Below are positions 4,129-35,624 of a DNA stretch of 64,000 bases, piece by piece. Below the pieces are notes generated by a model, which did not search any database, was not told where the DNA came from, and saw only the letters and a program-made list of their open reading frames with translations. The stretch is from Chelydra serpentina (taxonomy: Eukaryota > Chordata > Testudines > Chelydridae), in NCBI GenBank assembly GCA_037349315.1, contig JBAIAC010000059.1, forward strand, positions 30,350,501 through 30,414,500. The letters run 5' to 3'. Numbering within the stretch: the stretch's first letter is position 1; every line of letters starts with the position of its first letter. The position numbers and the translations under genes were made by a program.

Positions 4129-4134
4129 GCATAG

Positions 4135-4849: not shown

Positions 4850-5040
4850 GCTGCTGCTGGCATACCAAAGCTATCCAGGCCTGTATGCCACTAGCCTGGT
4901 TACTGCAATAGTGCCAGCCAAACTCATCATAGAGTGGCATGGAAAAGTGACCTACCACCATACCTAGAAACCTTCATGAGAGGATTGCAGAGTATTTCCA
5001 TGTAATTTCATCAGGATCTCTCAGGAGACATTCCTTTGTT
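4850..5040 (+). pseudogene. ORF3-like remnant of the ancient Harbinger
   Basis: The plus-strand translation includes LYATSLVTAIVPAKL and then EWHGKVTYHH. These line up with PYAAMLCKAMIPDYV and AWRGRVCYHG of the intact third ORF in the younger Harbinger copies. Stop codons follow, so it is not coding now. It lies on the strand opposite the Myb exons, as in the intact elements. Confidence 0.55.
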
Positions 5041-12789: not shown

Positions 12790-12886
12790 GTGAGTACCTT
12801 TGTAAATATAATACAGGGTTTAAAAGCAAGCGTGTTTAATTAATAATTTGCCCTGAAAATTTGGGAAGCATTTGCGGTCAGTACAG

Positions 12887-13165: not shown

Positions 13166-13439
13166 GGTAACCTGGTTGAAATATGGGAAATTTGTTTAAG
13201 GGAACATTCAGAGGTGCCCGTTCCTGCTGGGCTGCTTGACTTTGGCTGAAAAGAAATCATCCCCGCTGTTAGCCATGTGGTGGGGGGAGGCCCGTTCATT
13301 CTATGCTGTTCGTGTTTGGCTGACGGGGATCTTCCCTGATACTAGCCACGTGGTGGGGGGTGGGGTGAAGCGATCATCCCAGAAAATTGGGTGTGGGAGG
13401 GCAGTTGGCTTACAGGGAAGTAGAGTCAACCAAGGGGGC

Positions 13440-14254
13440 TGTCAGGGTTCCCTCCCCACTCTAAACTCTAGGGTAAAGATGTGGGGACCCGCATGAAGAG
13501 CCCCTAAGCTTATTTTTACCAGCTTAGGTTAAAACCCCCAAGGTACCAAAATTCCCTGCACCCTGAGAAATGCTTCTTTCGCTGCCACCATCAAGTGTCT
13601 AACAGGAATCCAGGAAAGGAATCACTTGAACTTCCCTCCCCCCCAAAATACCCCCCTCAAGTCCGTACACCCCCTTTCCTGAGAAGCTTGAGAACAATCT
13701 CCCAACCAATTGGTTACACAGTGATCTAAAAACCCACCCCCTGGGTTTTAACACCATAGAAAACAGTCAGCTTCTTAAAAGAAGGATTTTATTAAAACAA
13801 AGAAGGTAAAATCATCTCTGTAAAATCAGGATGGTAACTAATTACAGGGTACTCAATTTCCAAACTCAGAGGGATTCCCCCTCTGGCAAAACTTAAAGCT
13901 ACAAAAAAACAGGAATAACCCCCCCCCCCCCCCAACACAGGGAACACACCAAGCAAAATAAACAGAAATCTACTCGCTATGCTATCTAAACTTACTTTAG
14001 AAAAGTGAGTACTGGTGAGGAGACTGATTTTTTGTAGGTTCTTTCTGTCTTCCAAGATCACTCCGTGTCTGACAAAGAGCCACACACAAAGCTTTCCCCC
14101 TCCCAAGATTTGAAAGTATCTTGTCCCCTTATTGGTCAGATGCCAGCCAGGTCAGGTGTCAGTCTGGCTACCTGCATTTCTTAACCTTTTACTGGTAAGA
14201 GGATTTTATACCACTGCATCAGATCCTCTCCCCCTTCCCTTTATATTTATGACA
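13440..14254 (-). repeat. 3' LTR of the Gmr1-like element
   Basis: In plus-strand orientation it starts TGTCAGGGTTCCC and ends TTATGACA. It includes a long C run at about 13919-13933. It is nearly the same as the LTR at 18094-18876 apart from a short indel near 14048-14065, the length of the C run and a few substitutions. Confidence 0.9.
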
Positions 14255-14405
14255 CGCCCCCCCAAATCACCGATAGTGTGAAACACTGGCTGTGATTTCT
14301 TCCTGGAGCTCTAAAAGAAAACAAAATTAATAAGACACATGCATCTCCAAATATACTAATAACTGTATAAAGACTACCAATATTGTCCACATTGCAAGAA
14401 CAATT

Positions 14406-17400: not shown

Positions 17401-17846
17401 ATGTCCAGAGCACTTCCAGTCAACTTTGCTACCAATAGGGTCATTTTGTGATCATCAGGAATGTTATGGAGATTGCATAGTCTCTCAAAGGTGAGAAAAT
17501 ATTCAGCAATATCACGGGATTCATCATACGGTGGACATAGTTGCTCCCATTTGTGGATTGTTGGGGAAGGATTGTTAGTGTTATCCGGTAGATTCCGCTC
17601 CACCCTGGTCTTCTCCATCTCCAGGGCATGCTTCCTCTCTCTCTCCTTCTCCTCCATAGCATACTTCCTCTCCTCCTCAGCATGCTTCCTCTCTCTTTCT
17701 TTCTCCTCCTCAGCATGCTTCCTCTCTCTTTCTTTCTCATCAATCTCCATCTGTTTAAGTTGTAGCAGTCTTGCATGTTTCTTCTCCTCCTCATCGGCTT
17801 GTAGCCGAGCTATCTCAAGTTTAATAGCTGCTTCACTGGCAGTCAT
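14406..17846 (-). CDS. Gag-protease-integrase polyprotein of the Gmr1-like element (1146 aa)
   Basis: The ORF is unbroken. Residues about 1-95 form a charged coiled coil with repeated ERERKHAEEE units. A SCAN-like capsid region follows (about 175-265; MAQEQFLNMSKDDIRQCLW), then a zinc knuckle CFKCNELGHVKANC (about 337-350) and a DTGA protease motif (about 398). A long Pro/Thr/Ser linker contains an inverted duplication. The integrase part has an HHCC-type zinc region, then the catalytic Asp of AVDILGPF, Asp of LTDSGTNF and Glu of GLVEKFNG, and a GPF module near the end. No YxDD-type RT or RNase H motif is present. A capsid of this kind is the known source of vertebrate SCAN domains. It is likely a non-autonomous copy relying on RT in trans. 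Confidence 0.85.
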   Translation of the reverse strand: MTASEAAIKLEIARLQADEEEKKHARLLQLKQMEIDEKERERKHAEEEKERERKHAEEERKYAMEEKERERKHALEMEKTRVERNLPDNTNNPSPTIHKWEQLCPPYDESRDIAEYFLTFERLCNLHNIPDDHKMTLLVAKLTGSALDIFNNMPIDEASDYEKFKDLVLKQFQVTPETYRVKFQTLIRGPGLSNVSYVNRIKELLNKWVKGRGVNRFEGVCDLMAQEQFLNMSKDDIRQCLWDKKMDLADSLAVYADQYEQSQISRGTRKFGTQGVQEAERNNPGHSLERYQKGKPETTTHHQGQPKAPQGKPPTPYCPTTPFSSNPPRPTDQSAGRCFKCNELGHVKANCPKNPNRVQFIAPGSHQRSSGPDASHIPLERRETVSVGRKKLTAWRDTGAQVSAIHQSLVDPSLINPEAQVTIQPFKSNSFDLPTAVLPVQYKGWSGNWTFAVYDDYPIPMLVGEDLTNCVKLAKRVGMVTRSQAKQAVTPSSVPETSTRTPSVLPDTQIEVVEPDTLPTTATAVVDPVAETRPKPVWEPELVKQPAPEPLPEASLGTGTGEATSTRTLASAGKGSGAGCFTSSGSQTGLGRVSATGSTTAVAVVGRVSGSTTSIWVSGSPALATPSTVPTPEGTTEPAMAAAADNSIQEAQPESELPHCAPAESGSQSTETTPSPTLLPEGPSPSPQPSEELMSPASREQFQAEQEADESLQRAWTVGRSTPLPLSSSNRSRFVIEKGLLYKETLSGGHQEDWRPQRQLVVPTKYRVKLLSLAHDHPSGYAGVNRTKDRLGRSFHWEGMGKDVSTYVQSCEVCQRVGKPQDQVKAPLQPLPIIEVPFQQVAVDILGPFPKKTPRGKQYILTFMDFATRWPEAVALSNTRAKSVCQALTEIFARVGWPADILTDSGTNFLAGRMKSLWEAHGVNHLVATPYHHQTNGLVEKFNGTLGAMIRKFVNQHSNDWDLVLQQLLFAYRAVPHPSLGFSPFELVYGRKVKGPLQLVKQQWEGFTPSSGTNILDFVSNLQNTLQDSLALARENLKEAQEEQKAWYDKHARERSFKVGDQVMVLKALQAHKMEASWEGPFTVQERLGAVNYLIASPTTTLKPKVYHVNSLKPFFPRELKVSQFTAQGGDDAGGPEGVYYKEPTG
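15986..16335. repeat. Large inverted duplication inside the Gypsy ORF
   Basis: The sequence from about 15986 to 16133 recurs as its reverse complement at about 16190-16335. The spacer is a further partial copy (about 16134-16189), with the CTTGCCAGCACTGGCAAGG palindrome at the centre. The peptide PDTQIEVVEPDTLPTT is therefore encoded on both strands. The minus-strand ORF stays open through the inverted arm. Confidence 0.9.
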
Positions 17847-18093
17847 CTTAGCCTTTCTGTTTTTAATCTGTCTTAACCCGAGAGAGTTAGAAAAGAAAAA
17901 AAAACTTGCTTGGGTATTCCCTGTAAGGGCTAACTACCTGCTTTCATATGTAGATACTCTAGCTCCTAGCAGCTTAACCCCTCCCCCCTCCCTGCTTCCA
18001 GCAGCTACAGAGAAGAGCCAGAGAGAAGAAAAAAAAATTCTAAACTCCCTGTGTCTGGTTCAAAACAAATCTCTGGTTCAATATATCCCACCA

Positions 18094-18876
18094 TGTCAGG
18101 GTTCCCTCCCCACTCTAAACTCTAGGGTAAAGACGTGGGGACCCGCATGAAGAGCCCCTAAGCTTATTTTTACCAGCTTAGGTTAAAACCCCCAAGGTAC
18201 AAAATTCCCTGCACCCTGAGAAATGCTTCTTTCGCTGCCACCATCAAGTGTCTAACAGGAATCCAGGAAAGGAATCACTTGAACTTCCCTCCCCCCCAAA
18301 ATACCCCCCTCAAGTCCATACACCCCCTTTCCTGAGAAGCTTGAGAACAATCTCCCAACCAATTGGTTACACAGTGATCTAAAAACCCACCCCCTGGGTT
18401 TTAACACCATAGAAAACAGTCAGCTTCTTAAAAGAAGGATTTTATTAAAACAAAGAAGGTAAAATCATCTCTGTAAAATCAGGATGGTAACTAATTACAG
18501 GGTACTCAATTTCCAAACTCAGAGGGATTCCCCCTCTGGCAGAACTTAAAGCTACAAAAAAACAGGAATAACCCACCCCCCCCAACACAGGGAACACACC
18601 AAGCAAAATAAACAGAAATCTACTCGCTATGCTATCTAAACTTACTTTAGAAAAGTGAGTACTGGTGAGGAGACTGATTTTTTGTAGGTTCTTTCAAAGA
18701 GCCACACACAAAGCTTTCCCCCTCCCAAGATTTGAAAGTATCTTGTCCCCTTATTGGTCAGATGCCAGCCAGGTCAGGTGTCAGTCTGGCTACCTGCATT
18801 TCTTAACCCTTTACTGGTAAGAGGATTTTATAGCACTGCATCAGATCCTCTCCCCCTTCCCTTTATATTTATGACA
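18094..18876 (-). repeat. 5' LTR of the Gmr1-like element
   Basis: It begins TGTCAGGG and ends ATGACA (plus orientation) and is nearly identical to the LTR at 13440-14254. A TTTATT-type and TATA-like AT-rich stretch lie in the middle, where the element's own promoter and polyadenylation signals would be expected. Confidence 0.9.
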
Positions 18877-19218
18877 GGCACGGATTTTCATCAAGGAGAA
18901 ACAAACAGAACGGTCACACTGTAGCCTGGCCAGTCACAAAACTGGTTTTCAAAGCTTCTCTGATGCGCAGCGTGCCCAGCTGTGCTCTTCTAATCACCCT
19001 GGTGTCTGGCTCTGCGTAATCGGCCACCAAGCGATTTGCCTCAACCTCCCACCCCACCATAAACGTCTCCCCCTTACTCTCTCAGAGATTGTGGAGCACA
19101 TAGCAAGCAGCAATAACAATGTGAATATTGGTTTCGCTGAGGTCTAACCTAGTCAGTAAACTGCGCCAGAGATCTTTTAAATGTCCAAATGCACATTCTA
19201 CTACCATTCTGCACTTGC

Positions 19219-20005
19219 TCAGAATGGAAAACCTGTCGTATGAATGGAGACTCAAGGAGCTTGGTTTGTTTACCTTAACCAAAAGAAGGCTGAGGGGAGA
19301 TATGATTGCTCTCTTTAAATATATCAGAGGAATAAATACCAGGGAGGGAGAGGAATTATTTCAGCTCAGTACCAATGTGGACACAAGAACAAATGGATAT
19401 AAACTGGCCATCAGGAAGTTTAGACTTGAAATTAGATGAAGGTTTCTAACCATCAGAGGAGTGAAGTTCTGGAACAGCCTTCCAAGGGAAGCAGTGGGGG
19501 CAAAAGACCTAACTGGCTTCAAGATTAAGCTAGATAAATTATTGGAGGGGATGGTTTGATGGGATAACATGATCTTAGTCAAAGCTCAATTAATTGCCAT
19601 CAGTGGCAAATAGGACCAATGGTCAATGATGGGATGTTAGAAGTTACTACAGAGATCTTTTTCCTGGGTGTCTGGCTGGTGAGTCTTGCCCACATGCTCA
19701 GGGTTCAGCTGATCACCATATTTGGGGTCGGGAAGGAATTTTCCTCCAGGGTAGATTGGCAGAGGCCCTGGAGGTTTTTTGCCTTCCTCTGCAGCATGGG
19801 GCACGGGTCACTTACCGGAGGATTCTCTGCACCTTGAAGTCTTTAAACCATGATTTGAGGACTTCAATAGCTGAGACATAGGTGAGAGGATTATTCCAGG
19901 AGTGGGTGGGTGAGATTCTGTGGCCTGCATTGTGCAGGAGGTCAGACTAGATGATCATAATGGTCCCTTCTGACCTTAAAGTCTATGAGTCTATGAGTCT
20001 ATGAG
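19219..20005 (+). mobile_element. CR1-like LINE 3' fragment
   Basis: It encodes the end of a CR1 ORF (NLSYEWRLKELGLFTLTKRR, then FWNSLP-type sequence) and a 3' UTR ending in AAAGTCTATGAGTCTATGAG repeats typical of this CR1 subfamily. It interrupts the H0 transposase. Confidence 0.8.
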
Positions 20006-20199
20006 CCTATAGTTGAACTGCTCCTTACTACTGTCCAGGGTGCCTGTGTATGGCTTCACGACCCATGGCATTAAGGTGTAGGCTGGGTCCCCAAGGATAA
20101 CTATAGGCATTTCAACATCCCCAACAGTTATTTTCTGGTCTGGGAAGTAAGTTCCTTCCCGCAGCTGTTCAAACAGACCAGAGTTCCTAGTCTGGTCCG

Positions 20200-20381
20200 G
20201 GGGGAGGGATAGCTCAGTGGTTTGAGCATTGGCCTGCTAAACCCAGGGTTGTGAGTTCAATCCTTGAGGGGGCCATTTAGGGATCTGGGGCAAAAATTGG
20301 GGATTGGTCCTGCTTTGAGCAGGGGGTTGGACTAGATGACCTCCTAAGCTCCCTTCCAACCCTGATATTCTATGATTCTAT
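20200..20381 (+). mobile_element. tRNA-head/CR1-tail SINE
   Basis: The head GGGATAGCTCAGTGG and B box GAGTTCAATCC are followed by the GGGGCAAAAATTGGGG body and CR1 tail TTCTATGATTCTATGA. It is inserted in the H0 transposase. Confidence 0.9.
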
Positions 20382-20742
20382 GAAGATGCAAGCGTCACGC
20401 AGCTTTCCCAGCCATCCCATGTTGATGTCAGTGAAATGTCCCTTGTGATCCACCAGAGCTTGCAGCACCATTGAAAAGTACCCCTTGTGGTTTATGTACT
20501 GGCTGCCCTGGTGGTCCGGTCCCAGGATAGGTTTATGCGTTCCGTCTATAGCCCCACCACAGTCAGGGAACCCCATTGCAGAAAAGCCATCCACTATGAC
20601 CTGCACATTTCCCAGAGTGACTACCCTTGATAGCAGCAGTTCAATAATTTGCATTGGCTACTTGCATCACGGCAGCCCCCACAGTAGAGTTGCCTACTCC
20701 AAATTGATTTCTGACTGACCGGTAGCTGTCTGGCGTTGCAGA

Positions 20743-22690
20743 TGTAAGCAGAGTCAGGATGAGCTCTACCCTGACATCTGGTGGTGAGTTGTGGAAAGGG
20801 ATGTCAGAGGCTAATCTTGTTTGCATGGAGACACCCACCCTGCAAAGCATGATGGACCGCTTGCCCAAATGGTCACTTTGGCGGCTGTGGGATCCCCAGT
20901 TTCTCTGTTATTGGGGCAGGAATAATAAAGTGTTGTTACCCTGATTATGTGAATCAAGGACAGTGACCTTTTGTTATGATGAAGGGACTCGCCCTCAACT
21001 AAGCAGCACTCGCTAGGCGAGGAACATGGGTTCCAAAACCCAGTGAATTAAGAAAGGCTGGGGATAGGTATTTATATCTGGTGGCATGGGCCTCGTCTAA
21101 GGGCTCTAAATGTCAGTTGCATCTCTCCCTCCCCACTGTGAAATATCAGACCTAATTTTGAGTTCCTTAGGAGTCTAGTCACAGGCTGTTGAGTTAGAAT
21201 TGCTCTGGGCTAATGGTACAAATGAGCACTAAGGCTCCCCTTACTACAAGCTGAAATCACTAAGGAGCTGATATGGCTGAGCACTGTGTTACGTAGTGGG
21301 GGAGCCAGAAGATATATTGCTGAGCAGCTGGCGGGATGGCTGGTGGAGCGGCGCTGCTGATGGAGCGGAGCAGCTTGCAGGACGGCTGACGGAGAGGAGC
21401 TGCTGGTGGAGCGGAGCAGTTGGCGGGAAAGCCGGAGCGGCTTGCGGGACGGCTGACGGAGTGGAGCAGAGTGACTCATGGGATGGCTGGCGGAGCAGAG
21501 CCAAGCGAAGCCCCATGAAGGGATGGGGCAGTCAGCTTTGAGCCACGTAAGGTTCCCCATTTCTACCCTGCCTGGGGGGAGGGGGTAACACTCTGCAGAT
21601 GATCTTTTGAACTCTGTGTCTGGACTTTTGGGTTGTTGGACTTTTGGGACTTTGGGTGATTTTTGGGGTTGCTGGACTAGGGACCGAATGGCTGGGCAGC
21701 AGTTCTGCAGAAAAGGACCTAGGGGTTACAGTGGACGAAAAGCTGAATATGAGTCAACAGTGTGCCCTTGTTGCCAAGAAGGCTAACGGCATTTTGGGCT
21801 GTATAAGTAGGGGCATTTCCAGCAGATCAAGGGACGTGATTATTCCCCTCTATTCGGCACTGGTGAGGCCTCATTTGGAGTACTGTGTCCAGTTTTGGGC
21901 CCCACACTACAAGAAGGATGTGGATAAATTGGAAAGAGTCCAGCGGAGGGCAACAAAAATGATTACGGGACTGGAGCACATGACTTATGAGGAGAGGCTG
22001 AGGGAACTGGGATTGTTTAGCCTGAAGAAGAGACGAATGAGGGGGGATTTGATAGCTGCTTTCAACTACCTGAAAGGGGGTTCCAAAGAGGATGGATCTA
22101 GACTGTTCTCAGTGGTAGAAGATGACAGAACAAGGAGTAATGGTCTCAAGTTGCAGAGGGGGAGGTTTAGGTTGGATATTAGGAAAAACTTTTTCACTAG
22201 TAGGTTGGTGAAGCACTGGAATGGGTTACCTAGGGAGGTGGTGGAATCTCCTTCCTTAGAGGTTTTTAAGGTCAGGCTTGACAAAGCCCTGGCTGGGATG
22301 ATTTAGTTGGGGTTGGTCCTGCTTTGAGCAGGGGGTTGGACTAGATGACCTCCTGAGGTCCCTTCCAACCCTGAGATTCTATGATTCTATGATTCTGTGA
22401 CTCAAGAACCAAAGGGAAAGGACATGGCCAATTTGCTGGGGTGGGTCTTTGCTCACAGTTTGGTTTACGAATCCTAGATGTGGTGTTTCCCCAACAAAAT
22501 GCCACATTGTTTCTCTCTGTCATTAAAAGGTTTTTGCTACACTCAGACTCTGTGCTTGCGAGAGGGGAAGTACTGCCTCTTAGAGGCGCCCAGGGGGGTG
22601 ATATATATTTGTCCCAGGTCACTGGGTGGAGGCTCGAGCCGGTTTTGCATTGTGTTATTGGAATGGAACCCCGAGATACTGAACCCGGCC
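20743..22690 (+). mobile_element. LTR copy A (TGTAAGCAGAG family), right end truncated, with CR1 inside
   Basis: It begins TGTAAGCAGAGTCAGG, the same start as the LTR at 24095. It ends within GAACCCGGCC, lacking the last about 40 bp present at 35570-35606. A CR1 fragment lies inside (21690-22398). Copy A shows the uninterrupted CCTCTTAGAGGCGCCC junction (about 22577-22592) into which Harbinger H2 jumped in copy B. Confidence 0.75.
21690..22398 (+). mobile_element. CR1 LINE 3' fragment
   Basis: The frame reads [49 protein letters not shown] and [13 protein letters not shown], the C-terminal end of CR1 reverse transcriptase. A 3' UTR ending in ATTCTATGATTCTATGATTC follows. It is 5'-truncated and inserted in LTR copy A. 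Confidence 0.9.
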
Positions 22691-23235
22691 TTCCACAGGG
22701 TATCGCCACTCGCTTCTCAACTGTGAGGGCTGCTCTCATCTTGGTATTCTTGCGCTTCAGGGCAGGGGAAAGCAAGTCACAAAGTTCCAGGAAAGTGGCC
22801 TTACGCACGCGAAAGTTTCGCAGCCGCTGGGAGTCATCCCATACATGCAACGCTATGCAGTCCCACCAGTCTGTGCTTGTTTCCCGGGCCCAGAATCAGC
22901 GTTCCACAACATGAACCTGCCCCAATGCCACCATGATGTCGAAATTGCCACATCCCATGCTTTCAGAGAAGTCTGTGTCCATGTCCTCATCATTATCGTG
23001 ATAGCGCTTTTGTTGCAGCCTCGCCTGCTTTTGCAGGTTCTGCACATACTGCAGGATAATGCGCAAGGTGTTCACTGCTGCAGTTGTGAGCATTGTATCT
23101 GAGCGGGCTCTATGCTTGCAGTGCTATGGCGTCTGCGTGGACAATCCAGTAAAAAGGGTGCAAAATGATTGTCTGTGAGGGGTGACTGCAGGAGAGCGAA
23201 ATGATTGTCTGCAAGGGATGACTGCAGGAGAGCAG

Positions 23236-23483
23236 AGTTGCAGCAGCGGAAGTGGTGGAGTTGTACACCATGTACGATGACGACGGCTTGCAGTCCTACT
23301 GCACTGTCTGCCGCGAAGGCACCCAGGAGCTGCTGCTGTGTAGCAATGCCAGCTGCTGCAGGTGCTTCTGTGTCAAATGCTTGGAGGTCCTGGTAGGGCA
23401 AGGTCCTTGGCTAAAGCAAAAGAGCAAGAGCCCTGGAGCTGTTACATGTGTCAACCACAGCAGTGGTATGGCGTCTGCATGGG
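23236..23483 (+). pseudogene. DNMT3B-like ADD-domain fragment captured in Harbinger H0
   Basis: The plus-strand translation reads [14 protein letters not shown], then [20 protein letters not shown] and VLVGQG; after a one-base frame change comes [15 protein letters not shown]. The spacing of cysteines and the surrounding residues match the ADD (GATA-like plus PHD) zinc domain of DNMT3 DNA methyltransferases, closest by memory to DNMT3B. The rest of the methyltransferase is absent. It lies between the H0 transposase start and the right terminus, where H2 has no such sequence. Near-repeats of about 50 bp (ATGGCGTCTGC...) flank it at about 23126 and 23468. I infer capture of host sequence by the transposon; it is probably not functional. 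Confidence 0.85.
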
Positions 23484-24778
23484 TAACCCAGGAAAAAAGG
23501 CGCGAAACGATTGTCTGCCGTTGCTTTCACGGAGGGAGGGGCGATTGACGACATGTACCCAAAACCACCTGCGACAATGTTTTTGCCCCATCACGCATTA
23601 GGAGCTCAATCCAGATTCAAATGGGAGGTGGAGACTGCGGGAACTATGGGATAGCTACCCACAGTGCACCGCTCTGTAAGTCAATGCTAGCCACGGTAGT
23701 GAGGGCGCACTCTGCTGACTTAATGCGCTTAATGTGGACACACACAATCGACTGTATAAAATCTCTTCCGAAAAATCGACTTCTATAAAATCAACCTAAT
23801 TTCGTAGTGTGGACATACCCTAAGTGGAGGCCTGAGGCTTGGTTACTTTAAGGGAACTGTGTTGTTGACTTCTGGGTAACCAGTGAGGTATTTTAGAAGC
23901 TGCTTTGTGCTGTCTTGGTAAATCTAAGTATTGGAATATCCACCAGCTTTGGGGATTGTCTGCCCCATTCTTTGCAGTTCACCCTACTTGAGTGACCTCA
24001 GCTGGCTCCCCCAGGACCCCGGTCACACTAGCTCTCCTAAGTGCTACACTAATACAAATAAATACAAATAGATAACAACAACAGTGCATGTTTGTGTAAG
24101 CAGAGTCAGAACGGGCTCTACCCTGACATCTGGTGGTGAGCTGTGGGACAGGACTTCGGTCTGATCTTGTTTGCATGGGCACACCCACCCTGCCTAGCAT
24201 GATGGGACTGCTTGCCCAAATAGTCACTTTGACTGCTGTGGGATCCCCAGTCTCATTGTTATTGGGGGCAGGAGGAATAAAGTGTTGTTATCCTGGTTAT
24301 GTGAATCACGGATAGTAGAGTTGTACCTGGCATTTTATGACGGAGGGACTTGCCCTCCACTAAGTAGCACTCGCTAGGCAAGGGACATGGGTTCCAAAAC
24401 CCAGTGAATTGAAAGAGCATGGGGACAAGTATTTGTGTCTGGTGGTACGGGCTTAGACACTGTCTTTATTGTGTTTTCTCTTTGCTGTGTAATGACAATC
24501 ATGTGTAAGTAGTCTCTTGACTTATCAAAGGCTGTGATCAAGTGTCTTGATGTGTTTGATCTTTTGGTCTTGAGATGAACACCTTGTCTTTGTCTCTTGG
24601 ACCCTGAAGTAAAAACATTCCCTCAGTCTAGCCTTTTGGCTAAAATCAAGCACAATATCAGAGCTAATTTTCATTCTATTAGGAGTCTGGTTACAGGCTG
24701 CAGAGCTGGATTCACTTTGGGCCAATGGTGCACCAGCACTGGGGCTCCCCTACTACCAGCTAAAATCCCTAAAGAGCT

Positions 24779-24985: not shown

Positions 24986-25900
24986 AAGAGCTAAAGTTAC
25001 TAAGAGCTGAAATCACTGAGTACCATGTTAAGTAGTGGCAGAGAGGAGCGGCTTGCAGGATGTCGGCTGGCAGAGAGGAATGGCTTGCAGTGAAGGCTGC
25101 AGCAGAACCCCATGGAGAGGCGGGGCAGTCGGGCATTGGAGCACGTAAGGTGCCCCTTACCTCTTCCCCACCCACTCCATTTCCACCCAGGCTGGGAGGT
25201 AAAACTCTGCAGATGAACTTTTGAACTCAGGGGCTATACTGACCAGGGACAGAGATTTTTGCGTTGCTGGACTTTTGGGACTTTGGGTGACTGGGTTGCT
25301 GGACTCAAGATGTTACAAATCCTGTTTGTGGTGTTTCCCCAACATAATGCCACATTGTTTCTCTCTGTTATTAAAAGGCTTTTGCTACACTCAGACTCTG
25401 TGCTTGCGAGAGGGGAAGTTTTGCCTCTTAGGCCTGGTCTACACTAAGGGTATGTCTACACTACAGAATTAGGTCGAAATTATAGAAGTCGATATATTAA
25501 AACCCGAATTTATGGAATCGATTGTGTGTGTCCCCACTAAAGAGCATTTAGACCATGAGGTCGATTGACTGTGTCCACAGTAGCGAGACTAGCATCGACC
25601 TTCGGAGCATTGCATTGCGGGTAGCTATCCCACAGTTCCCGCAGTCTCCGCCGCCCATTGGAATTCTGGGTTGCGATCCCAAAGCCTGATGGGGCAGAAA
25701 ACATTGTCGCTGGTGGTTCTGGGTACATGTCATCAAGCCATCAAACGTCCCTCCCTCCCTCCTTGAAAGCAATCTTTTTTGCGCCTTGTCTCCGGGGTTT
25801 CCCTGTTTGCTACGGAAGCCTGCTCAGCTCACAATTACCATCCCTCTCCAGCGTACGCCTGCATATTAGGTCTAGTGGGGATTCAGTCACGCTATAATAC

Positions 25901-25976
25901 GGGCAGAGGGATAGCTCAGCGTTCTGAGCGTTGGCCTGCTAAACCCGGGGTTGCGAGTTCAATCCTTGAGGGGGCC
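25901..25976 (+). repeat. tRNA-like module 1 in H1
   Basis: GGGATAGCTCAGCG (A box) and GCGAGTTCAATCC (B box) lie about 40 bp apart, followed by TTGAGGGGGCC. This is the head of the turtle SINE without its CR1 tail. It could act as an internal Pol III promoter. H3 has the same module on the minus strand at 60375-60450. Confidence 0.7.
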
Positions 25977-26257
25977 ATTCTGCCTGAGGCTGGTAGTTGT
26001 GGGTCTGCACAGCATAAGCTCCTTGCCTTCTAACTGCAGATGGTGCGATATGCCATAAATGGTTGTGGTCGTGGGACCATAGAGCAGCAGCCCCTTGCCT
26101 TCTAGCTGCAGATCGTACAATATGCTTGAAATTTGTGTATCCTGGCCGGCGGCCTATGGTGTGGCTGGCTGGGGGTGCTTGGACATAAATTGGAGTGACT
26201 CTGTTCATTCTCTTTTTTACGTTTTGTTTAAGGGAGATTCAGCACTGCCTGGAACAG

Positions 26258-26333
26258 GGGCAGAGGGATAGCTCAGCGGTATGAGCGTTGGCCTGCTAAA
26301 CCCGGGGTTGCGAGTTCAATCCTTGAGGGGGCC
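26258..26333 (+). repeat. tRNA-like module 2 in H1
   Basis: It has the same A and B boxes as module 1 (GGGATAGCTCAGCGG and GAGTTCAATCC) and again lacks the CR1 tail. It lies about 360 bp downstream of module 1 and about 210 bp before the transposase ATG. The counterpart in H3 is at 60052-60127. Confidence 0.7.
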
Positions 26334-26538
26334 AGGAGAGCTTATTGTACCATCTGCAGCTAGAAGGGAAGGCGCCTAACCCTTGCTCCCCACTCCCTCC
26401 GTGAAAGCAACTGAGGGGGGAGCCAAAAATCCTTTCACGCCTTTTTTCATGCGGGCTCCATATAGCTGACACCATTGTTATCCACCCGCCGCTTCTGCTC
26501 CCACTCTGCTGTCCTGCAAACAGCATACCAGGGAAAGC

Positions 26539-27728
26539 ATGGAGCACGATCAGATCACCGCAACTGTTATCGCCGTTATGAGCACCACGTGCATTGTCCA
26601 GGAGTATATGGAGAACGAGAACCAGGAGCTGCTAGAGCAACAGGAGGTGAGGAGGGGACAGCATCAGCCTGAGGACAGTGATGAGGACATGGACACAGAC
26701 CTCTCTCAAAAAAGGCCCCCCCGCAAGGTGGACATCATGGTGGTAATGGGGCTCGCATGCGTAAGGGCACTTTCATGGAACTTTGTGAGTTGCTTTCCCC
26801 TGCCCTGAAGCGCCAGAACACCAAGATGAGAGCAGCCCTCACAGTAGAGAAGCGACTGGCGATAGCCCTGTGGAAGCTTGCAACTCCAGACAGCTACCGG
26901 TCAGTCGCGAATCAATTCGGAGTGGGAAAATCTACAGTGGGGGCTGTTGTCATGCAAGTAGCCAGGGCGATCACCAAGCTGCTTGTACCAAGAGTTGTGA
27001 GTCTGGGAAATGTGCAGCTCATACTGGATGGCTTTGCAGCAATGGGGTTCCCGAACTGTGGAGGGGTGATAGACGGAACCCATATCCCTATCTTAGCACC
27101 GGACCACCAAGCCAGCGAGTACATAAACCGAAAGGGTTACTTTTCAATAGTGCTGCAAGCACTGGTGGATCATAAGGGACGTTTCACCAACATCAACGTG
27201 GGATGGCCGGGAAAGGTACATGACGCTCGCATCTTCAGGAACTCTGGTCTGTTTCAGCTGCTGCAGCAAGGGACTTTCTTCCCAGACCAGAAAATAACCG
27301 TAGGGGATGTTGAGATGCCCATAATTATCCTTGGGGACCCAGCCTACCCCTTAATGCCATGGCTCATGAAGCCATACACAGGTAGCCTGGACAGTAGTCA
27401 GGACCTTTTCAACTATAGGCTGAGCAAGTGCAGAATGGTGGTGGAATGTGCATTTGGGCGTTTAAAAGCTCGCTGGAGAAGTTTATTGACTAGGTTAGAT
27501 CTCAGCCAAACCAATATTCCCATTATTATTACTGCTTGCTGTGCGCTCCACAATATCTGTGAGAGTAAGGGGGAGACGTTTATGGCGGGGTGGGAGGTTG
27601 AGGCAAATCGCCTGGCCACTGGTTATGCGCAGCCAGACACCAGGGCTATTACAAGAGTACAGCAGGGTGCGTTGCGCATCAGGGAAGCTTTGAAAACCAG
27701 TTTCATGAATGGCCAGAATGCTGTGTGA
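26539..27728 (+). pseudogene. H1 Harbinger transposase, disabled by an internal deletion
   Basis: The N-terminus reads MEHDQITATVIAVM and an acidic segment EDSDEDMDTDLSQ follows. At about 26752, roughly 106 bp present in H3 are missing, which shifts the frame. The rest is open from MRKGTFMELCELLSPALK to the stop. It holds an HTH-like FGVGKSTVG segment and the DDE core: Asp in VIDGTHIPIL, Asp in ILGDPAYPLMPW, Glu in MVVECAFGRLKARW. This is the HARBI1-like nuclease type (DDE_Tnp_4). An AATAAA at 27836 serves as likely polyadenylation signal. Confidence 0.85.
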
Positions 27729-27835
27729 AAGTTCTGTTTTTCCCCAGTAATGAAAAGCCCCGCCCCTTCATTCACTCTACTTCCCTTTACCCAAACCGCC
27801 CTGACCTCCCCCCCACGGTCACCACTTGCAGAGGC

Positions 27836-27875
27836 AATAAAGTCATTGTTGCTTAAAAATCATGCATTCTTTATT
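27836..27875. terminator. Convergent polyadenylation signals between H1 transposase and Myb gene
   Basis: AATAAA lies at 27836-27841 for the plus-strand transposase. TTTATT at 27870-27875 is AATAAA on the minus strand for the Myb gene. The two transcription units end against each other. The same layout is seen in H3 (58343-58348 and 58377-58382) and more loosely in H2 (33101-33106 and 33670-33675). Confidence 0.7.
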
Positions 27876-28218
27876 AATTCGTAAAACACAGAGGGGGAAC
27901 TATGGGGGTAACTGCCACAGTCTCCTGGGATAGGTGGTGGAGGAAGGGAAGCACCAGGATGGGTGGTGGAGGAAGGGAAGCACCAGGATGGGTGGTGGAG
28001 GAGGGGATGAGGGAAGGACAAAGACACACAGCACTTTAAAACTTATTGAATGCCAGCCTTTTGTTGCTTGGACTGTTCTCTTGGCTTGAGTGGCTGGGTG
28101 CACGGAGGCCACCCAAACGCGTTCTTGGGCGTCTCGGGGATGAGGTTATGGGACTCGGGAAGGAGGGCTGTTGGTTACACAGGGGCTGTAGCGGCGGTCT
28201 GGGCTCAGGCGGCCTTTC

Positions 28219-28577
28219 CTAAACCCTATGCCTGTCCTCAGCCATAAGCCGGAGGATTTCCGTTTGATCCTCCAGTAGCCTCAGAATTGCATCCTGCCTT
28301 CTCTCTGCACGCTGACGCCACCTACTCTCTTCATCCCGCCGCTGTCTATCTTCAGCCCGCCAGTCATTGTCTTCAGCACGCCACTTGTCCACGCGATCAA
28401 ATTCTGCCTTCCTGGACTCCGACAGTGTCTGCCTCCACGCATTCTGCTGGGCAGCCTCAGAGTGGGAGGATTCCATGAGTTCTGAGAACATATCGTCTCG
28501 ATTCCTTTTCTTTTTACTTCTAATCTTCGCTAGCCTCTGGGACGGTGATGAAAGGGGTGGCGTTGAAACATTTGCAG
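28219..28577 (-). pseudogene. H1 Myb-like protein, exon 2 (premature stop)
   Basis: After a TTCCACAG acceptor the exon reads ANVSTPPLSSPSQRLAKIRS, a basic KKKRNRDDMFSEL segment and a long charged helix (WRAEDRQRRDEESRWRQRAE) with a Leu-rich end. The phase agrees with exon 1. A CAG-to-TAG change relative to H3 ends the frame after DRHRV, removing a Pro-rich tail of about 50 residues that H3 still shows. Confidence 0.75.
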
Positions 28578-29126
28578 CTGTGGAAGGAAACAAACGGGAG
28601 AGGAGTAGTTTAAAAGACACATATTAGAGAACAATGCTCCAAACATTACATATCACATGTGCATTTGGTCCAAGGTTGCACTTTGCCTGTTATATTGAGG
28701 GTCTGCCGGTTTGCTGTGAGAGATCACACAAGCAGGTCCGGCGGGCAACAGAATTCGGCTTGCAGACAGCCATGGTAAGACACAGTCTATAGGCTTCTTT
28801 AACCTTCATAACATGTGGGATTGTTTTCAAACAGCAACCCCCTCATTTCCCATAACAAACATCCTTTGGGCTGGCAATTTAAAACAAACAGGTTGGCAAT
28901 TGAAAAGGGAGGGGAGGCGGTTTTCGGGATAACATGCAGCGCGAACCTAATCTACACGCCCCCCCCAACACAGACACACATCCAAGATGTTCGCTGTTCC
29001 CCCTCCCCCCACCGCGTGGGTCACAGCGGGGAAGATTTCCGTTCAGCCACAGGCAAACAGCCCAGCAGGGACGGAGCCCCTCTGAATACCCCCTTAATAA
29101 AATTCCCCTATTTCAACCAGGTGACC

Positions 29127-29417
29127 ATGAATGATATCACTCTTCTGAGGATAACACAGACAGATAAAGAACGGATGTTGCTTGAATGCCAGCAAAAACC
29201 GGGACCATACGCCGCCATGCTTTGCAAAGCACTGATTCCAGACTACGTGCTACTGGCCTGGCGTGGCAGAGTGTGTTACCACGGAGCACAGGATATGGCT
29301 GCCCTCCCCAGAAACCTTTTGCACAGGCTTTGGGAGTACATCCAGGAGATCTTTCTGGAGATGTCCCCGGAGGACTTCTGCTCCATCCCCGAACATGTTA
29401 ACAGAGTTTTCCAGTAG
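29127..29417 (+). CDS. H1 copy of Harbinger ORF3 (unknown protein, 96 aa)
   Basis: The frame is uninterrupted from MNDITLLRITQTDKERM to NRVFQ. Distinct features are a PYAAMLCKALIPDY block, AWRGRVCYHG, a PRNLLHRLWEYIQEIF amphipathic stretch and MSPEDF near the end. A 3' splice-site-like CCCCTATTTCAACCAG directly precedes GTGACCATG, and ATTAAA follows at 29446-29451. The ORF lies on the transposase strand inside the intron of the Myb gene. I do not recognise the family. A role in transposition or host interaction is inference only. Confidence 0.7.
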   Translation: MNDITLLRITQTDKERMLLECQQKPGPYAAMLCKALIPDYVLLAWRGRVCYHGAQDMAALPRNLLHRLWEYIQEIFLEMSPEDFCSIPEHVNRVFQ

Positions 29418-29498
29418 CTGTAGCTGTACTGGCTACGAATTAATCATTAAACACGATTGCTTATAAAACATGTATTAATTTAACAGAGGTACACTCAC

Positions 29499-30027
29499 CA
29501 GAGGTCCCTTCTCCTGCATCGAGCACGCCTTGGGAGGGTTCGTAGGTTACTGGCTCCAGGGTGACAAAGAGTTCCTGGCTGTCGGGGAAAAGGGCTTCTC
29601 CGCTTCCTTGCTGTGTCTGTGTGCTATTTTCAGCATCATTATCATCATCATGCTCCTCTGTGGGTTCTGATGATCCACATACGGAGTCAAACCACATGGG
29701 TGGGTCAGTGGTGGCTGCACCTCCTAGAATGGCATGCAGCTCATCATAGAAGCGGCATGTCTGGGGCTGTGACCCAGAGCGGTTGTTTGCATCTCTGGTT
29801 TTTTGGTAGGCTTGCCTGAGCTCCTTGATTTTCACGCGGCACTGTTGCGCGTCCCTGTTGTAGCCTCTGTCCTGCATGCCCTTGGAGACTTTGGCATATG
29901 TATTGGCGTTTCTTCTTTTGGACTGTAGCTCTGCTAGCACGGTTTCGTCTCCCCATACAGCGATCAGATCGTGTACCTCACGCTTGGTCCATGCTGGAGC
30001 TCGTCTTCGGTTCTGGGACTCCATCAT
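29499..30027 (-). CDS. H1 Myb/SANT-like protein, exon 1
   Basis: The exon starts MMESQNRRRAPAWTKREVHD and continues LIAVWGDETVL, QQCRVKIKELRQAYQKTRD, FYDELHAILGGAATTDPP, an acidic EEHDDDNDAE segment and FPDSQELFVTLEP. This is the DNA-binding partner typical of Harbinger elements. The exon ends at a GTGAGT donor (29498 downward) in phase with exon 2 at 28577. It has no internal stop. The chosen ATG at 30027 sits in GTGACCATG, as in the other copies. Confidence 0.8.
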
Positions 30028-30810
30028 GGTCACCTCTGCTGATGAGATCTGCACTCACCTGCAGCTCACCACGCTGGCCAAACAGGAAATGAAATTCAAA
30101 AGTTCGCGGGGCTTTTCCTGTCTACCTGGGCGGAGCATTCAAGCTCAGACTGCTGTCCAGAGCGGTCAAATGTTGCACTGTGGGATAGATCCAGGAGGCC
30201 AATACCATCAAATTGCGTCCTCACTAAGCCTACATCGATTCGGCAATATCGCTTTAAGCGCTAATCCCCTCGTTGGGGGTGGAGTGGCGAGATCGATTTT
30301 AAGAGCCCTAGAAGTCGATGTTAAGGGCTTAGTCGTGTGGATGGGTGCACGGATCAATCAAAATAACGCTAATAAATTTGACCTAAACTCGTAGTGTAGA
30401 CCAGGGCTAGGACTTTATGTCGAATTTAGCAGTGTTAACTCGATTTAACCCTGCACCCGTCCACATTACGAAGCTATTTATTTAGACATAAATGGCTCTT
30501 TAATTCGATTTCTGTACTCCTCCCCGATGAGCGGAGTAGCGCTAAATTCGACATGGCCATGTCGAATTCGTGTTACTGTGGACGGAATTCGACGCTAATA
30601 GCTCCGGAAGCTATCCCACAGTGCACCACTCAGTGGACGCTCTGGACAGCAATTCGAACTCGGATGCTCTGACCACCCACTCAGGAAAAGCCCCGGGAAA
30701 ATTTGAATTCCTTTTCCTGTCTGGCCAGTTTGAATCTCATTTCCTGTTTGGACATCGTGGCGAGCACAGCAGCACTGACAACGATGCAGAGCTCTGCAGC
30801 CGTGGTGACC

Positions 30811-31360
30811 ATGACATCGCAGAATAGGAAGAGAGCACCAGCTTGGACTGATCGGGAAGTCTTGGACCTGATCGCTGTGTGGGGCGATGAGTCCATGCTT
30901 TCGGAGCTGCGTTCCAAAAGATGGAATGCGAAAATTTATGAGAAGATTTCCAAGGCAATGGCGGAGAGAGGATACGTCCGGGATGCAACACAGTGCCGCG
31001 TGAAAATCAAGGAGCTGCGACAGGCATACCAAAAAACCAAAGAGTCCAACGGACGCTCCGGATCGCAGCCACACACATGTCATTTTTACTAGGCACTACA
31101 TGCTATGCTCGGTGGTGCTGCCACCACTACACCACCAGTGTCCGTGGACTCTGACGACAGGGTCTTATCTACGGCCACGTCGTCTGAAATTTTCACAGAC
31201 GGTGAAGAGGAGGAAGGAGAGGAGGAGGATGAGGCAGTCAACAGCGCTTTCAACGCTGATTTCCCCGACAGCCAGGATCTGTTCATCACCCTCACCGAGA
31301 TCCCCTACAAACCCTCCCAAAGCAGCAGCCCAGACCAGGACCCAGGTGAAGGATCGTCAG
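30811..31360 (+). pseudogene. H2 Myb/SANT-like protein, exon 1 (one stop)
   Basis: The exon reads MTSQNRKRAPAWTDREVLDL, RRNAKIYEKIS-type sequence, QCRVKIKELRQAYQKTKES and HTCHFY. A TAG at 31090-31092 replaces the Asp codon found in H1 and H3. After the stop the same frame continues ALHAMLGGAATTTPP, an EEEEGEEEDE acidic run and FPDSQDLFITL. It ends before GTCGGT at 31361, a weaker donor than the GTGAGT of the other copies. A single substitution is therefore the main visible lesion. Confidence 0.8.
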
Positions 31361-31472
31361 GTCGGTGTTTTAAATATTTATTTTGAATAGAATAGGCATT
31401 GGTTTCTTATCAATGTGTTTTTATTGCTTGCTTTGCAATAGGCGCTTCAGTTTTCAATCTTTTCCAAGGCAA

Positions 31473-31763
31473 CTACTCGAACAGTCTGTCAATATGTATG
31501 GGGATAGAGGAGAAATCCCCATCGGAGATCTCCGCGAAACTCTCCTGTAGGTACAGTGAAAGCTCTTGCATCAGGTTCCCAGGGAGAGCGGCCTTACTAT
31601 CTCCACCATGGTAGGATACTTTTCCGCGCCATGCAAGCTGCAGGTACTCTGGTATCATTGCCTTGCATAGCATGGCGGCATACGGCCCCGGGGTTTGCTT
31701 GCATTCACGCAGCATGCGTTCTTTCTCTGTCTCTGAAATCCTCATCAGAGTGATATCAGTCAT
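31473..31763 (-). CDS. H2 copy of Harbinger ORF3 (unknown protein, 96 aa)
   Basis: The frame is open from MTDITLMRISETEKERM to DRLFE. By hand alignment it has the same length as the H3 copy with no gaps and about two-thirds identical residues (64 of 96). Shared blocks are PGPYAAMLCKAMIP, LAWRGKV, YHGG and KAALPGNL. A splice-acceptor-like CATTCAAACCAG precedes GGCACCATG. It lies in the Myb intron on the opposite strand. The family is unrecognised. Divergence without frame loss suggests selection on the protein while the elements were active. Confidence 0.7.
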   Translation of the reverse strand: MTDITLMRISETEKERMLRECKQTPGPYAAMLCKAMIPEYLQLAWRGKVSYHGGDSKAALPGNLMQELSLYLQESFAEISDGDFSSIPIHIDRLFE

Positions 31764-31907
31764 GGTGCCCTGGTTTGAATGGGTGTTTTTGTTAGTATAG
31801 TGACTCCTTGATTTTTCCTTTAATGAATGACAACCGGCGATTGGCAGACATGCGTGGGGGGTGGTAGCAGTGAGGCTAACAGAAGAAACTTTGCGGAGCA
31901 CAGGCAG

Positions 31908-32175
31908 GGAGAGTTCCCTGAACCGGCCCCGCGGAGGGGGTGGGGAGGGTAGGAGAGCCGTTAGCACACAGCCATGCGCAGGCAGCCAGAGTTCCCTGGA
32001 CCGGCCACGCGGAGGGGGTGGGGAGGGTATCTGAGCCGTTACAGCACAGCGGAGCGCAGGCAGGCAGAGTTCCCTGGAATGGCCACGCGGCGGGGGTGGG
32101 GAAGGTAGGCGAGCCGTTAAACCACGGCGGGTCGCGTGCAGGGAGAGTTCCCGGTACCGGCACCGCGGAGGGGGT
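31908..32175. repeat. GC-rich tandem repeat, about 79 bp x about 4
   Basis: GAGTTCCCTG-type starts recur near 31910, 31990, 32068 and 32146, each followed by a GGCC...GCGGAGGGGGTGGGGA block. It lies in the H2 Myb intron, about 150-400 bp upstream of the ORF3 start on the minus strand, so it could act as a promoter region. H1 and H3 lack it. Confidence 0.8.
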
Positions 32176-32541
32176 GGGGGGGGGGAACGTGTGTGCGAGC
32201 CCTTGTAGCCGAGCGGTTTTGCCGGCATCAGGAACTGGCCACCGCTAGGAGCTGTGCTTTAAAAATGGGAGTACCGCACTGCTGTGAAGTTAGGTCACAG
32301 CAGTCCAAAGGCACTGGCTTACCATGGTCTCCAGAGAGCAGTTTTGCAGTGTCCAGGTCCGCTTGTGTGATCAGAACACCAGGACCCCTGGCACTTAATA
32401 CAAAGACATAATATTCTACCTTGTACTGAGTGCACATGTGATAGATAGTATGCATGGTCTTGTTCACAGGGAAAGAGTATAGGCATTGTTTGGAAAAATG
32501 TATCTTTCTGAGGAATTCACTCCCTTTCTCCCATCCCACAG

Positions 32542-33023
32542 CTGCGAGTGTCTCCCTCCCTACCCGTGGATCGCCCTCCCAGAGGCTTGCGCAGATCAGG
32601 CGGCGCAAAAAAAAAACCCGGGACGACATGTTTTCGGAACTGATGGTCTGTTCCCGAAATGATGCTGCACAGCGGAGAGAGGACGTCTCAAGGTCCAAGC
32701 GAGCAGTCAGCGAACGGGATCAGAGGGCTGAAGCTCGCGAGGACAGGTGGCGGTTGAAAGACCAGCAGACGACTCAAACGCTGCTTGGACTAATGCGGGA
32801 GCAAACAGATACGCTCCGCCGCCTTGTTGACGTTCTGCAGGAACGGAGGATGGAGGAAAGGGCACCTCTGTATGTTCTTTCCAACCGCCCTCCCCTGCCA
32901 CAAAGTCCAATTCCCCCCTCACCCAAAGTCAGTAGAACGAGGGGAGGCAGGGGCCGAGGAAATAATCACTCCACCCCTGCGGACTGCTCCAGTAGCAGAA
33001 GGCTCTCCTTTCCAAAAATATAG
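32542..33023 (+). CDS. H2 Myb-like protein, exon 2
   Basis: After a TCCCACAG acceptor the exon reads ASVSLPTRGSPSQRLAQI, a basic RRRKKKTRDDMFSEL segment, a charged helix (SERDQRAEAREDRWRLKDQQ) and a Leu-rich part (LREQTDTLRRLVDVLQERR in approximate form). A Pro-rich, Gly/Arg-containing tail (TRGGRGRGNN) ends at 33023. It is intact and in phase with exon 1. AATAAA at 33101-33106 is the likely polyadenylation signal. Confidence 0.75.
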
Positions 33024-33796
33024 ATGGGACCTTGACTTCCCTCCAAACGCACCACACCCCAGCCCCCGTCCAAGTGTCATCCTAAAACTTTGCTCTCCTT
33101 AATAAAAAATTGTGTTCTGAACAGTCCTGATTCCTTGACTGTCTTTCAAAGGGCTGTTGTATTGTGGGGGATGGGAGGGGTGGTTTGTGATTTGAGACGA
33201 AAGTCGCAGATAACAGGGTGGGAACAGGGGAAAAGGTTCATCAGAAAGTCACACTCACATTGCATTCACTAGGCACACTTGCCATTCTAGGAGGGGGTTT
33301 TCCTGTTCTCTATGCGGGGGGGGGGGGGGGCTGTCACTTTCAGGTGGTGGAGGGTGGCTGCAGATCGTTGGCGGCAGGCAATAGCCTGCATGACAGATCC
33401 ATGCAGCAGGGGATCAGTGGCCGCAATCCCCTGCAAAGAAGTCATGCAGGCCCCCGCTCACAGAGTTGCGAACAGGAGTGGTTGCAGGCTCCATTGAAAC
33501 AAGCAGTACACCATTGCGGACTGCTCAGGGAGCAGGACCCTGTCATTCCCCGAGTTGGGAAGGGCCCTTTCCATCACTCCACGCGCTCCCCAACCAAGAT
33601 TTGTCCCAGTCTCAGCACTTTACCGAGAAATCATTAATAAAGAAGACGGTTTCAATAAACAATGTTTCCTTTATTATACTTTTAAACCGGGGACTGAAGG
33701 AGGGGGAAAGGGTGCTGGTAATGGGAGAGGATAGACAACGGTCACCAGGTAAAGAAACGGGGGCTGGTTCAGCTTCAGTTTTAACAAGTGAAACAG

Positions 33797-35080
33797 TCAC
33801 TGGTTACCCTGCTCGCTCTGGAATGTAGCTTTCAAAGCTTCCCGGATGCGCAGTGCGTCCTGCTGTGATCTTCTAATCGCCCTGGTGTCCGGCTGTGCGT
33901 AATCAGCAGCCAGGCGACTGGCCTCAGCCTCCCACCCCACCATAAACGTCTCCCCCTTGCTCTCGCAGAGATTGTGGAGCACACAGCAAGCTGCAATCAC
34001 AATGGGGATATTTGTTTGGCTGAGATCGGAGCGAGTAAATAAGCTTCGCCATCTCCCTTTCAGACGGCCAAAGGCACACTCCACCACCATCCTGCACTTG
34101 CTCAGCCGGTAGTTGAAGAGCTCCTTTTCAGTGTCCAGGGTGCCCGTGTATGGCTTCATGAGCCAGGGCATTAGCGGGTAGGCTGGGTCCCCGAGGATCA
34201 CTACAGGCATCTCCACATCCCCAACAGTTATTTTGCGGTCCGGGAAGAAAATACCCTCCTGCAGCCGTCTGAACAGATCAGAGTTCCTGAACACACGAGC
34301 GTCATGAACCTTGCCCGGCCATCCGACGTTGATGTTTGTAAAACGTCCTTTATGGTCCACTAGTGCTTGCAGCACCATAGAAAAATAGCCCTTCCGGTTA
34401 ATGTACTGGCTACCCTGGTGGGCCGGTCCAAGGATGGGGATGTGTGTCCCATCAATAGCCCCACCGCAGTTTGGAAATCCCATAGCAGAAAAGCCATCTA
34501 TGATCACCTGCACGTCTCCAAGGGTCACTACCTTTGAGAGCAGCAGGTCAATGATTGCATGGGCTACCTGCATCACAGCAACCCCCACGGTAGACTTGCC
34601 CACTCCAAATTGATTCGCGACTGACCGGTAGCTGTCTGGTGTTGCAAGCTTCCACAGGGCTATGGCCACTCGCTTCTGGATAGTCAGGGCTGCTCGCATC
34701 CGGGTGTCCTGGCACTTCAGGGCAGGGGACAGCAACTCACAAAGTTCCAGGAAAGTGCCCTTACGCATACGAAAGTTTCTCAGCCACTGTGATTCATCCC
34801 AGACCTCCAGCACTATGCAGTCCCACCAGTCAGTGCTTGTTTCCCTGTCCCAGAATCGCCGTTCCACAGGATCAACGTGACCCATTGCCACCATGATGTC
34901 TAGGGGCCGGGGTCCCGTGCTTTGCGAGAGGTCTGTGCCCCTCTCAGAGTTCATGTCCTCACGGAGCTTTCGTTGCCTCCTCGCCAGATTTCTCTGCATC
35001 TGCCTCTGGAAAAGGTGGACGATAAGGCGCGAGGTGTTGACAACGGACAGAACAGCAGCGATAATCGCGGAGGGCTCCAT
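33797..35080 (-). CDS. H2 Harbinger transposase, full length (427 aa)
   Basis: The frame is open from MEPSAIIAAVLSVV to the stop. An N-terminal acidic/basic region is followed by LDIMVAMGHVDPVERRFW, the MRKGTFLELCELLSPALK helix and the HTH-like NQFGVGKSTVG. The DDE core has Asp in GGAIDGTHIPIL, Asp in VILGDPAYPLMPW and Glu in MVVECAFGRLKGRW. The C-terminus has ACCVLHNLCESKGE. HARBI1-type nucleases of this kind cut and paste the element at TWA targets. No lesion is seen, so it could still be active in trans. A TTTATT at 33670-33675 provides a minus-strand polyadenylation signal. Confidence 0.9.
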   Translation of the reverse strand: MEPSAIIAAVLSVVNTSRLIVHLFQRQMQRNLARRQRKLREDMNSERGTDLSQSTGPRPLDIMVAMGHVDPVERRFWDRETSTDWWDCIVLEVWDESQWLRNFRMRKGTFLELCELLSPALKCQDTRMRAALTIQKRVAIALWKLATPDSYRSVANQFGVGKSTVGVAVMQVAHAIIDLLLSKVVTLGDVQVIIDGFSAMGFPNCGGAIDGTHIPILGPAHQGSQYINRKGYFSMVLQALVDHKGRFTNINVGWPGKVHDARVFRNSDLFRRLQEGIFFPDRKITVGDVEMPVVILGDPAYPLMPWLMKPYTGTLDTEKELFNYRLSKCRMVVECAFGRLKGRWRSLFTRSDLSQTNIPIVIAACCVLHNLCESKGETFMVGWEAEASRLAADYAQPDTRAIRRSQQDALRIREALKATFQSEQGNQ

Positions 35081-35624
35081 GCTCGCTGTCCTGTGGCATC
35101 CGCGCTGTCAATCACCAGAAAAGGGCGCGATGTAATTGCCCGCCAGCGCTTTCACGTAGGGAGGGTGGGAGTGTGGGTCGAATGACGACAGGTTCCCAAA
35201 ACCACCCGCGACACATTTTTGGCCCCAGAAGGCACTGGGGGCTAGACCCAGAATTCCAATGGGCAGCGGGGACTCCGGGAACTGTGGGATAGCTACCCAC
35301 AGTGCACCGCTTGCATTGTCGATGCTTGCCCCGTTAGTGTGGACTCACAAACTCGAATTAAGGTCCTTGGTGTGGATTCGCACGATCGAGTTTGTAAAAT
35401 CGATTTCACAAGTTCGGTTTAAGATAAATCGAACTATTCCCGTAGTGTAGACATACCCTTAGAGGCGCCCGCGGGGGGTGGTATGTAGTTATCCCAGGTC
35501 ACTGGGTAGGGGCTTGAGCCGGCTTTGCATTGTGTTATTGGAACAGAACACCAAGATACTGAACCCGGCCCTTGTTGCTGCCAGCTCTGATGGGCAGAAG
35601 GGTTACACTTGGTCATAATAGGAA

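Follow-up and report, generated by a model that had tools for sequence, protein, structure and literature searches.

The window analysed here, a stretch of 64,000 nucleotides from Chelydra serpentina (contig JBAIAC010000059.1), contains four copies of a PIF/Harbinger transposon, named H0, H1, H2 and H3, and in all four the set of exactly two genes that is typical of such elements, although not required, is exceeded by a third gene, ORF3 (ORF, open reading frame). The copies display the hallmarks of PIF/Harbinger: terminal inverted repeats (TIRs) that have GTCTACACTAC in common (the right end in H0 has one mismatch); 3-bp TWA target site duplications (TTA/TTA in H3, TAA/TAA in H0); a DDE transposase, for which that of H2 matches DDE_Tnp_4 in Pfam (PF13359, E 2e-36); and a Myb/SANT-like second protein, for which that of H1 matches Myb_DNA-bind_4 (PF13837, E 2.3e-21). 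H1 (25448..30407; flanks TAA and TAG) and H3 (55868..60903) extend from TIR to TIR, H0 (11874..23820) ends in TIRs and carries later insertions, and H2 (30408..35458) possesses the right TIR while the left one is missing. Read along the transposase strand, the gene order in H1, H2 and H3 is transposase, Myb exon 2 (antisense), ORF3 (sense) and Myb exon 1 (antisense); H0 retains Myb exon 1, ORF3 and transposase pieces arranged around a later insertion.

ORF3 of H1 occupies positions 29127..29417 on the + strand, stop codon included, exactly as described in an earlier note on this DNA that had drawn attention to an ORF of about 96 amino acids. Its placement within the intron of the Myb gene, antisense to it, was likewise seen correctly: the H1 intron (28578..29498, -) separates exon 1 (29499..30027, -) from exon 2 (28219..28577, -), with CTCTG/GTGAGT as the donor and CCACAG/CTG as the acceptor (the slash marks the junction), and the spliced product is open over 295 residues. 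The further copies of ORF3 lie on the - strand at 56858..57148 (H3, 96 amino acids), at 31473..31763 (H2, 96 amino acids, inside a longer open frame) and at 12887..13165 (H0, 92 amino acids, one 12-nt in-frame deletion). The open frame had been claimed for five copies; it is found in all four of H0 to H3, but the decayed fifth copy, expected at about 4850-5040 and located at 4803..5036 (+), is recognisable only and contains stops. The motifs AAMLC, LAW(R/H)G and YHG were found in each of the four readable copies, and H2 and H3 indeed differ at 32 of 96 residues, and at 71 of 288 bases, with no indels. None of the four elements has all of its genes intact, and ORF3 is open in every one: the H1 transposase (26539..27728, +) is interrupted near 26751, Myb exon 1 of H2 contains a stop, H0 is in pieces, and H3 has one stop each in the transposase and in Myb exon 2. 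The Myb intron of H2 also holds 78-bp tandem repeats upstream of ORF3 (31893-32183), which lie in a long open frame of 251 amino acids that runs through into ORF3.

That ORF3 is a selected protein-coding gene, as the earlier note had proposed, we regard as nearly certain. The ratio of nonsynonymous to synonymous substitution rates (dN/dS, NG86) is 0.25-0.28 when H2 is compared with H0, H1 and H3, that is between subfamilies, which is similar to the 0.249 of the H2-H3 transposase pair. It is hence not near one between subfamilies, whereas closer pairs give 0.45-0.47 (H0 against H1 and H3) and 0.53 (H1-H3, with 6 differing sites only); these values from closer copies take in drift after insertion. 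YN00 values, obtained for three pairs, are 0.38 (H0-H2), 0.65 (H0-H1) and 0.79 (H0-H3). For comparison, the Myb exon 1 ratios (NG86) of H1 and H3 relative to H2 are 0.15 and 0.12, with dS saturated; between H1 and H3, a young pair, the ratio is 0.77. For a piece of Myb exon 2 it is 0.31. Relative to H2, the flanks of ORF3 have decayed: identity inside the ORF in the H1-H2 and H3-H2 comparisons is 69-83% per 96-nt bin without gaps, and 51-56% with 31-134 gap columns in the adjoining bins. The adjoining bins of H1-H0 (74% and 72%) are not clearly lower than ORF3 itself (70-83%).

ORF3 is short and resides inside the intron of another gene, and a frame open by chance, or one held by an antisense or RNA constraint, has therefore to be considered. 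This explanation is largely refuted, and we judge it very improbable. The differences between H3 and H2 number 19, 16 and 36 at codon positions 1, 2 and 3, an excess at the third position; only frame +0 is free of stops in all four copies, every other frame having at least one stop per copy. As a six-frame stop scan finds every antisense frame over ORF3 closed in each of the four copies, an overlapping coding constraint is unlikely. Neutral simulations equalled the real pairs in freedom from stops and in conservation in 0 of 20,000 runs each for H3-H2, H1-H2 and H0-H2, and in 228 of 20,000 for H1-H0. Relatives of the protein, moreover, form a family of 36 members and are found in several turtle species.

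The earlier note had named no fold or function for ORF3 and had suggested structure prediction, which yields a BEN fold, that of a DNA-binding domain associated with chromatin. The model of the H3 protein, 96% identical to that of H1, is confident and shows the five helices of this domain, and all top-ranked fold matches are BEN entries, separated by a wide Z gap from the remainder. On the strength of this model, ORF3 very probably has a BEN fold. Three results weigh against this assignment: no BEN match was obtained in Pfam, hhalign against a two-sequence BEN profile gave 1.6%, and the distant-subfamily ORF3, modelled alone, gave a poor model that matched no BEN chain. They would suit a five-helix look-alike unrelated to BEN; given the BEN entries in all top ranks and the Z gap behind them, we consider such a coincidence improbable. 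Pfam, PDB sequence and phage searches revealed no credible relative, and none of the three pattern matches in a scan of viral contigs was confirmed.

Three protein searches retrieved the 36 distinct relatives (E up to 10); such searches reach only relatives that share short words, and absence from other taxa cannot be read from them. The organism is named for 26 of the 36, with 15 from Chelonia, three from Malaclemys, two each from Chrysemys, Lepidochelys and Caretta, and one each from Mauremys and Pangshura, all of which we take to be turtles. A tree of 24 rows, built from the 23 rows of our alignment A4 (19 of the 36 database proteins among them) and the decayed window copy, divides ORF3 into a window type and a distant type of 12 rows each. 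The decayed copy starting at 4803 groups with the distant type on a long branch. On the opposite strand it is flanked by a weak Myb match (5392-5748, -) and, by eye, by a frame resembling the Myb C-terminus (4035-4340, -); since a distant-type copy thus also lies between Myb-like pieces, the data suggest that the nested antisense layout is old. One relative, P0029 from Chrysemys, is a zinc finger protein RFP-like model; about 40 ORF3 residues form its start, and a B30.2/SPRY-type region follows them.

Sequence signals around ORF3 point to a 3'-terminal exon transcribed from the transposase strand. An acceptor-like trinucleotide precedes the start codon as previously noticed, CAG in H0, H1 and H2 and TAG in H3; in H1 the predicted acceptor (29118..29120, +) stands directly before GTG-ACC-ATG. 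Downstream, a poly(A)-type hexamer begins 31-50 nt past the start of the stop codon in all four copies: the ATTAAA that had been ascribed to three copies is present in H0, H1 (29446..29451, +) and H3, and H2 carries AATAAA instead. Joins at or near the acceptor are also seen in database proteins, where the junctions are those of annotation gene models, not of reads. Six of the 36 proteins (P0001, P0006, P0007, P0008, P0009 and P0014) possess VTM, preceded by Q in five of them. In P0001, an uncharacterised isoform X2, the residue before VTM is T, and the join consequently coincides with the predicted acceptor; in P0007 and P0009 (QVTM) it lies three bases before this acceptor, and splicing there would require an AG at a position where the window copies have none. 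Host-gene models ending in window-type ORF3 comprise Rab-3C isoform X3 (P0007), CDK6 isoform X2 (P0009) and a glycine transporter (P0011, no VTM), and the Kirrel3 model P0020 carries ORF3 of the distant type.

Upstream of ORF3, within the Myb intron, a conserved block (28640..28774 in H1, +, start approximate) ends in CCATG/GTAAG and is a candidate 5' non-coding exon. Its GTAAG donor-like site (28775..28779, +) is conserved in H1, H2 and H3, with the context CATGGTAAG at 28771 (+), 32318 (-) and 57488 (-), and it represents one of eight donor-like columns common to H2 and H3. Joining this donor to the acceptor yields an in-frame ATG/GTG-ACC-ATG (GGC in H2), so that such an exon could supply both a leader and an upstream ATG. 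The block has no open frame shared among H1, H2 and H3. A 133-aa frame of H2 that covers it (32228-32629) is broken by stops in H1 and H3 and matches no Pfam family above the cut-off, and we therefore take the block as non-coding. Attempts to map the N-terminus that P0001 has upstream of ORF3 to the candidate exon did not succeed: the highest-scoring placements of this N-terminus were at other positions, and 14, 11 and 13 of 100 shuffled controls scored as high.

The same gene models bear on another possibility, namely that the transposase transcript uses ORF3 as an alternative 3' exon, without a separate ORF3 gene, and that a fusion of the transposase N-terminus to the BEN region could regulate transposition. 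ORF3 does lie downstream of the transposase on the same strand; in P0006, P0010 (isoform X2), P0012 and P0014, ORF3 is fused to transposase-type sequence, and P0021 and P0022 of the distant family have, by eye, a similar-looking acidic N-terminus. However, the donors used in P0006, P0010 and P0014 are inconsistent. Among the eight H2/H3 donor-like columns, the one nearest to such a junction (59513 in H3, 6 of 9 matches) misses that of P0010 (59488) by about 25 nt. Moreover, a single Chelonia annotation is the source of four of the six models, and ORF3 has an ATG of its own in H0 to H3. We hence regard the fusion as unlikely and favor ORF3 as a gene with its own product.

In solved complexes of BEN domains with DNA, helix alpha5 reads the major groove, and the backbone is held by alpha2 together with the alpha3-alpha4 loop (PMC11472053). 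The best-conserved stretch of ORF3 is WRGKVSYHGG..KAALPRN, a basic segment located at the alpha3-alpha4 loop. The face of alpha5 is variable; by hand alignment, the protein terminates where BANP has Arg316, which like Arg469 of NACC1 is a base-reading residue of alpha5. Q96 stands at the Arg316 position, and R is found there in four of seven members of the distant Chelonia/Caretta subfamily. The three 96-aa copies are slightly acidic, and H0 has 10 K/R against 10 D/E. The conserved basic loop, the variable alpha5 and the slight acidity together make it appear more likely that ORF3 contacts the DNA backbone or a partner through the loop than that it reads CpG strongly. Whether it would bind DNA directly at all appears evenly balanced to us. 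A BEN-fold module that serves protein interaction without DNA binding, like BEND3 BD1 with PICH, is a possible but clearly less favored alternative; the position of the basic, best-conserved stretch at an element that contacts the backbone in the known complexes speaks against it. One candidate target may be present in the element itself. The 13-mer TATCACATGTGCA is identical in H1 (28651..28663), H2 (32431-32443) and H3 (57603-57615) and includes ACATGT, reported as the target of the NAC1 BEN domain (PMC7764960). ACATGT has 22 occurrences in the window against about 16 expected, and TATCACATGTGCA is thus only a lead for self-regulation.

Other features of the window deserve mention. The right TIR of H1 directly adjoins H2, whose left TIR is missing; the elements stand end to end (30384-30430). 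The insertion in H0 (13532-18484) is bordered by repeats resembling long terminal repeats, 98% alike (13532-13831 and 18185-18484), and holds a 1146-aa gag-to-integrase-like ORF (14406-17846, -) with no obvious reverse transcriptase by eye. A tandem repeat at 38854-39676, with 59-65 bp spacing and 11 register copies, maintains an uninterrupted reading frame of 263 aa, itself repetitive. Repeated tRNA-like promoter sequence, GGCAGAGGGAtAGCTCAG...GGTTGCGAGTTCAATCC, occurs in the 5' region of H3 (60046-60455), with one matching piece in H1 (26193-26339); this is probably a family of short interspersed nuclear elements.

Taken together, we think it fairly probable that ORF3 is a real third gene of the turtle PIF/Harbinger element, encoding a compact accessory protein of BEN fold that acts with the transposase and the Myb protein at element DNA; the conserved frame, the purifying selection between subfamilies, the shared architecture and the confident BEN-fold model are what the data show, and the joint action at element DNA is proposed. 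Expressed as the 3'-terminal exon behind its conserved acceptor, nested antisense in the Myb intron and possibly preceded by the leader exon, ORF3 would yield a protein that enters the nucleus and works with its two partners on the element's own DNA. A nuclear accessory role is somewhat favored, most likely as a chromatin or DNA-binding factor that would aid assembly at the ends or set the element's own expression, with its grip on DNA or on a partner coming mainly from the basic loop and not from alpha5. A selected third protein with the fold of a chromatin factor would offer a direct handle on how Harbinger elements meet host chromatin, and the data suggest that some turtle annotations (CDK6, Rab-3C, glycine transporter and Kirrel3 models) include transposon-derived BEN exons; this might be a route for the spread of BEN domains. 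A bolder scenario, which we hold to be rather unlikely, is that one lineage of turtle PIF/Harbinger elements gained a nested BEN-fold gene that controls the element, possibly via the invariant ACATGT-bearing site beside its leader exon, and that the self-contained cassette of acceptor, ORF and poly(A) signal was repeatedly captured by host genes (CDK6, Rab-3C) as a last exon, giving them BEN tails and making the element a mobile source of BEN domains.

Compared with the BEN domains of BEND3 (BEN4, BEN3) and BANP, ORF3 matches in predicted fold but has no detectable sequence similarity, terminates with alpha5 and lacks a basic tail, and is no more than a candidate DNA-binding protein. BEN proteins of poxviruses and bracoviruses (BFVD) likewise place a BEN domain on mobile or viral DNA, but they are viral, mostly longer than ORF3, and weak fold matches (E 0.048 and up). 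Among the literature matches listed, screened at title and abstract level with most subscription journals and Repbase outside their scope, there was no report of a third gene or of a BEN gene in Harbinger. In the available parts of two accounts, vertebrate Harbinger elements are described as carrying two ORFs, for a transposase and a Myb-like protein (PMC4482050, PMC9179366), and one of them regards the function of the additional gene as unsettled (PMC4482050). The turtle element shares with them the DDE_Tnp_4 transposase, the Myb_DNA-bind_4 protein, the TIRs and the 3-bp TWA target sites, but has in addition a third gene, which lies within the Myb intron in antisense orientation. As far as these same sources describe it, ISL2EU, a member of the same superfamily, also encodes an accessory protein besides its transposase; there, however, the accessory is a YqaJ nuclease, whereas the turtle element retains Myb and adds a protein of predicted BEN fold (PMC4482050, PMC9179366).
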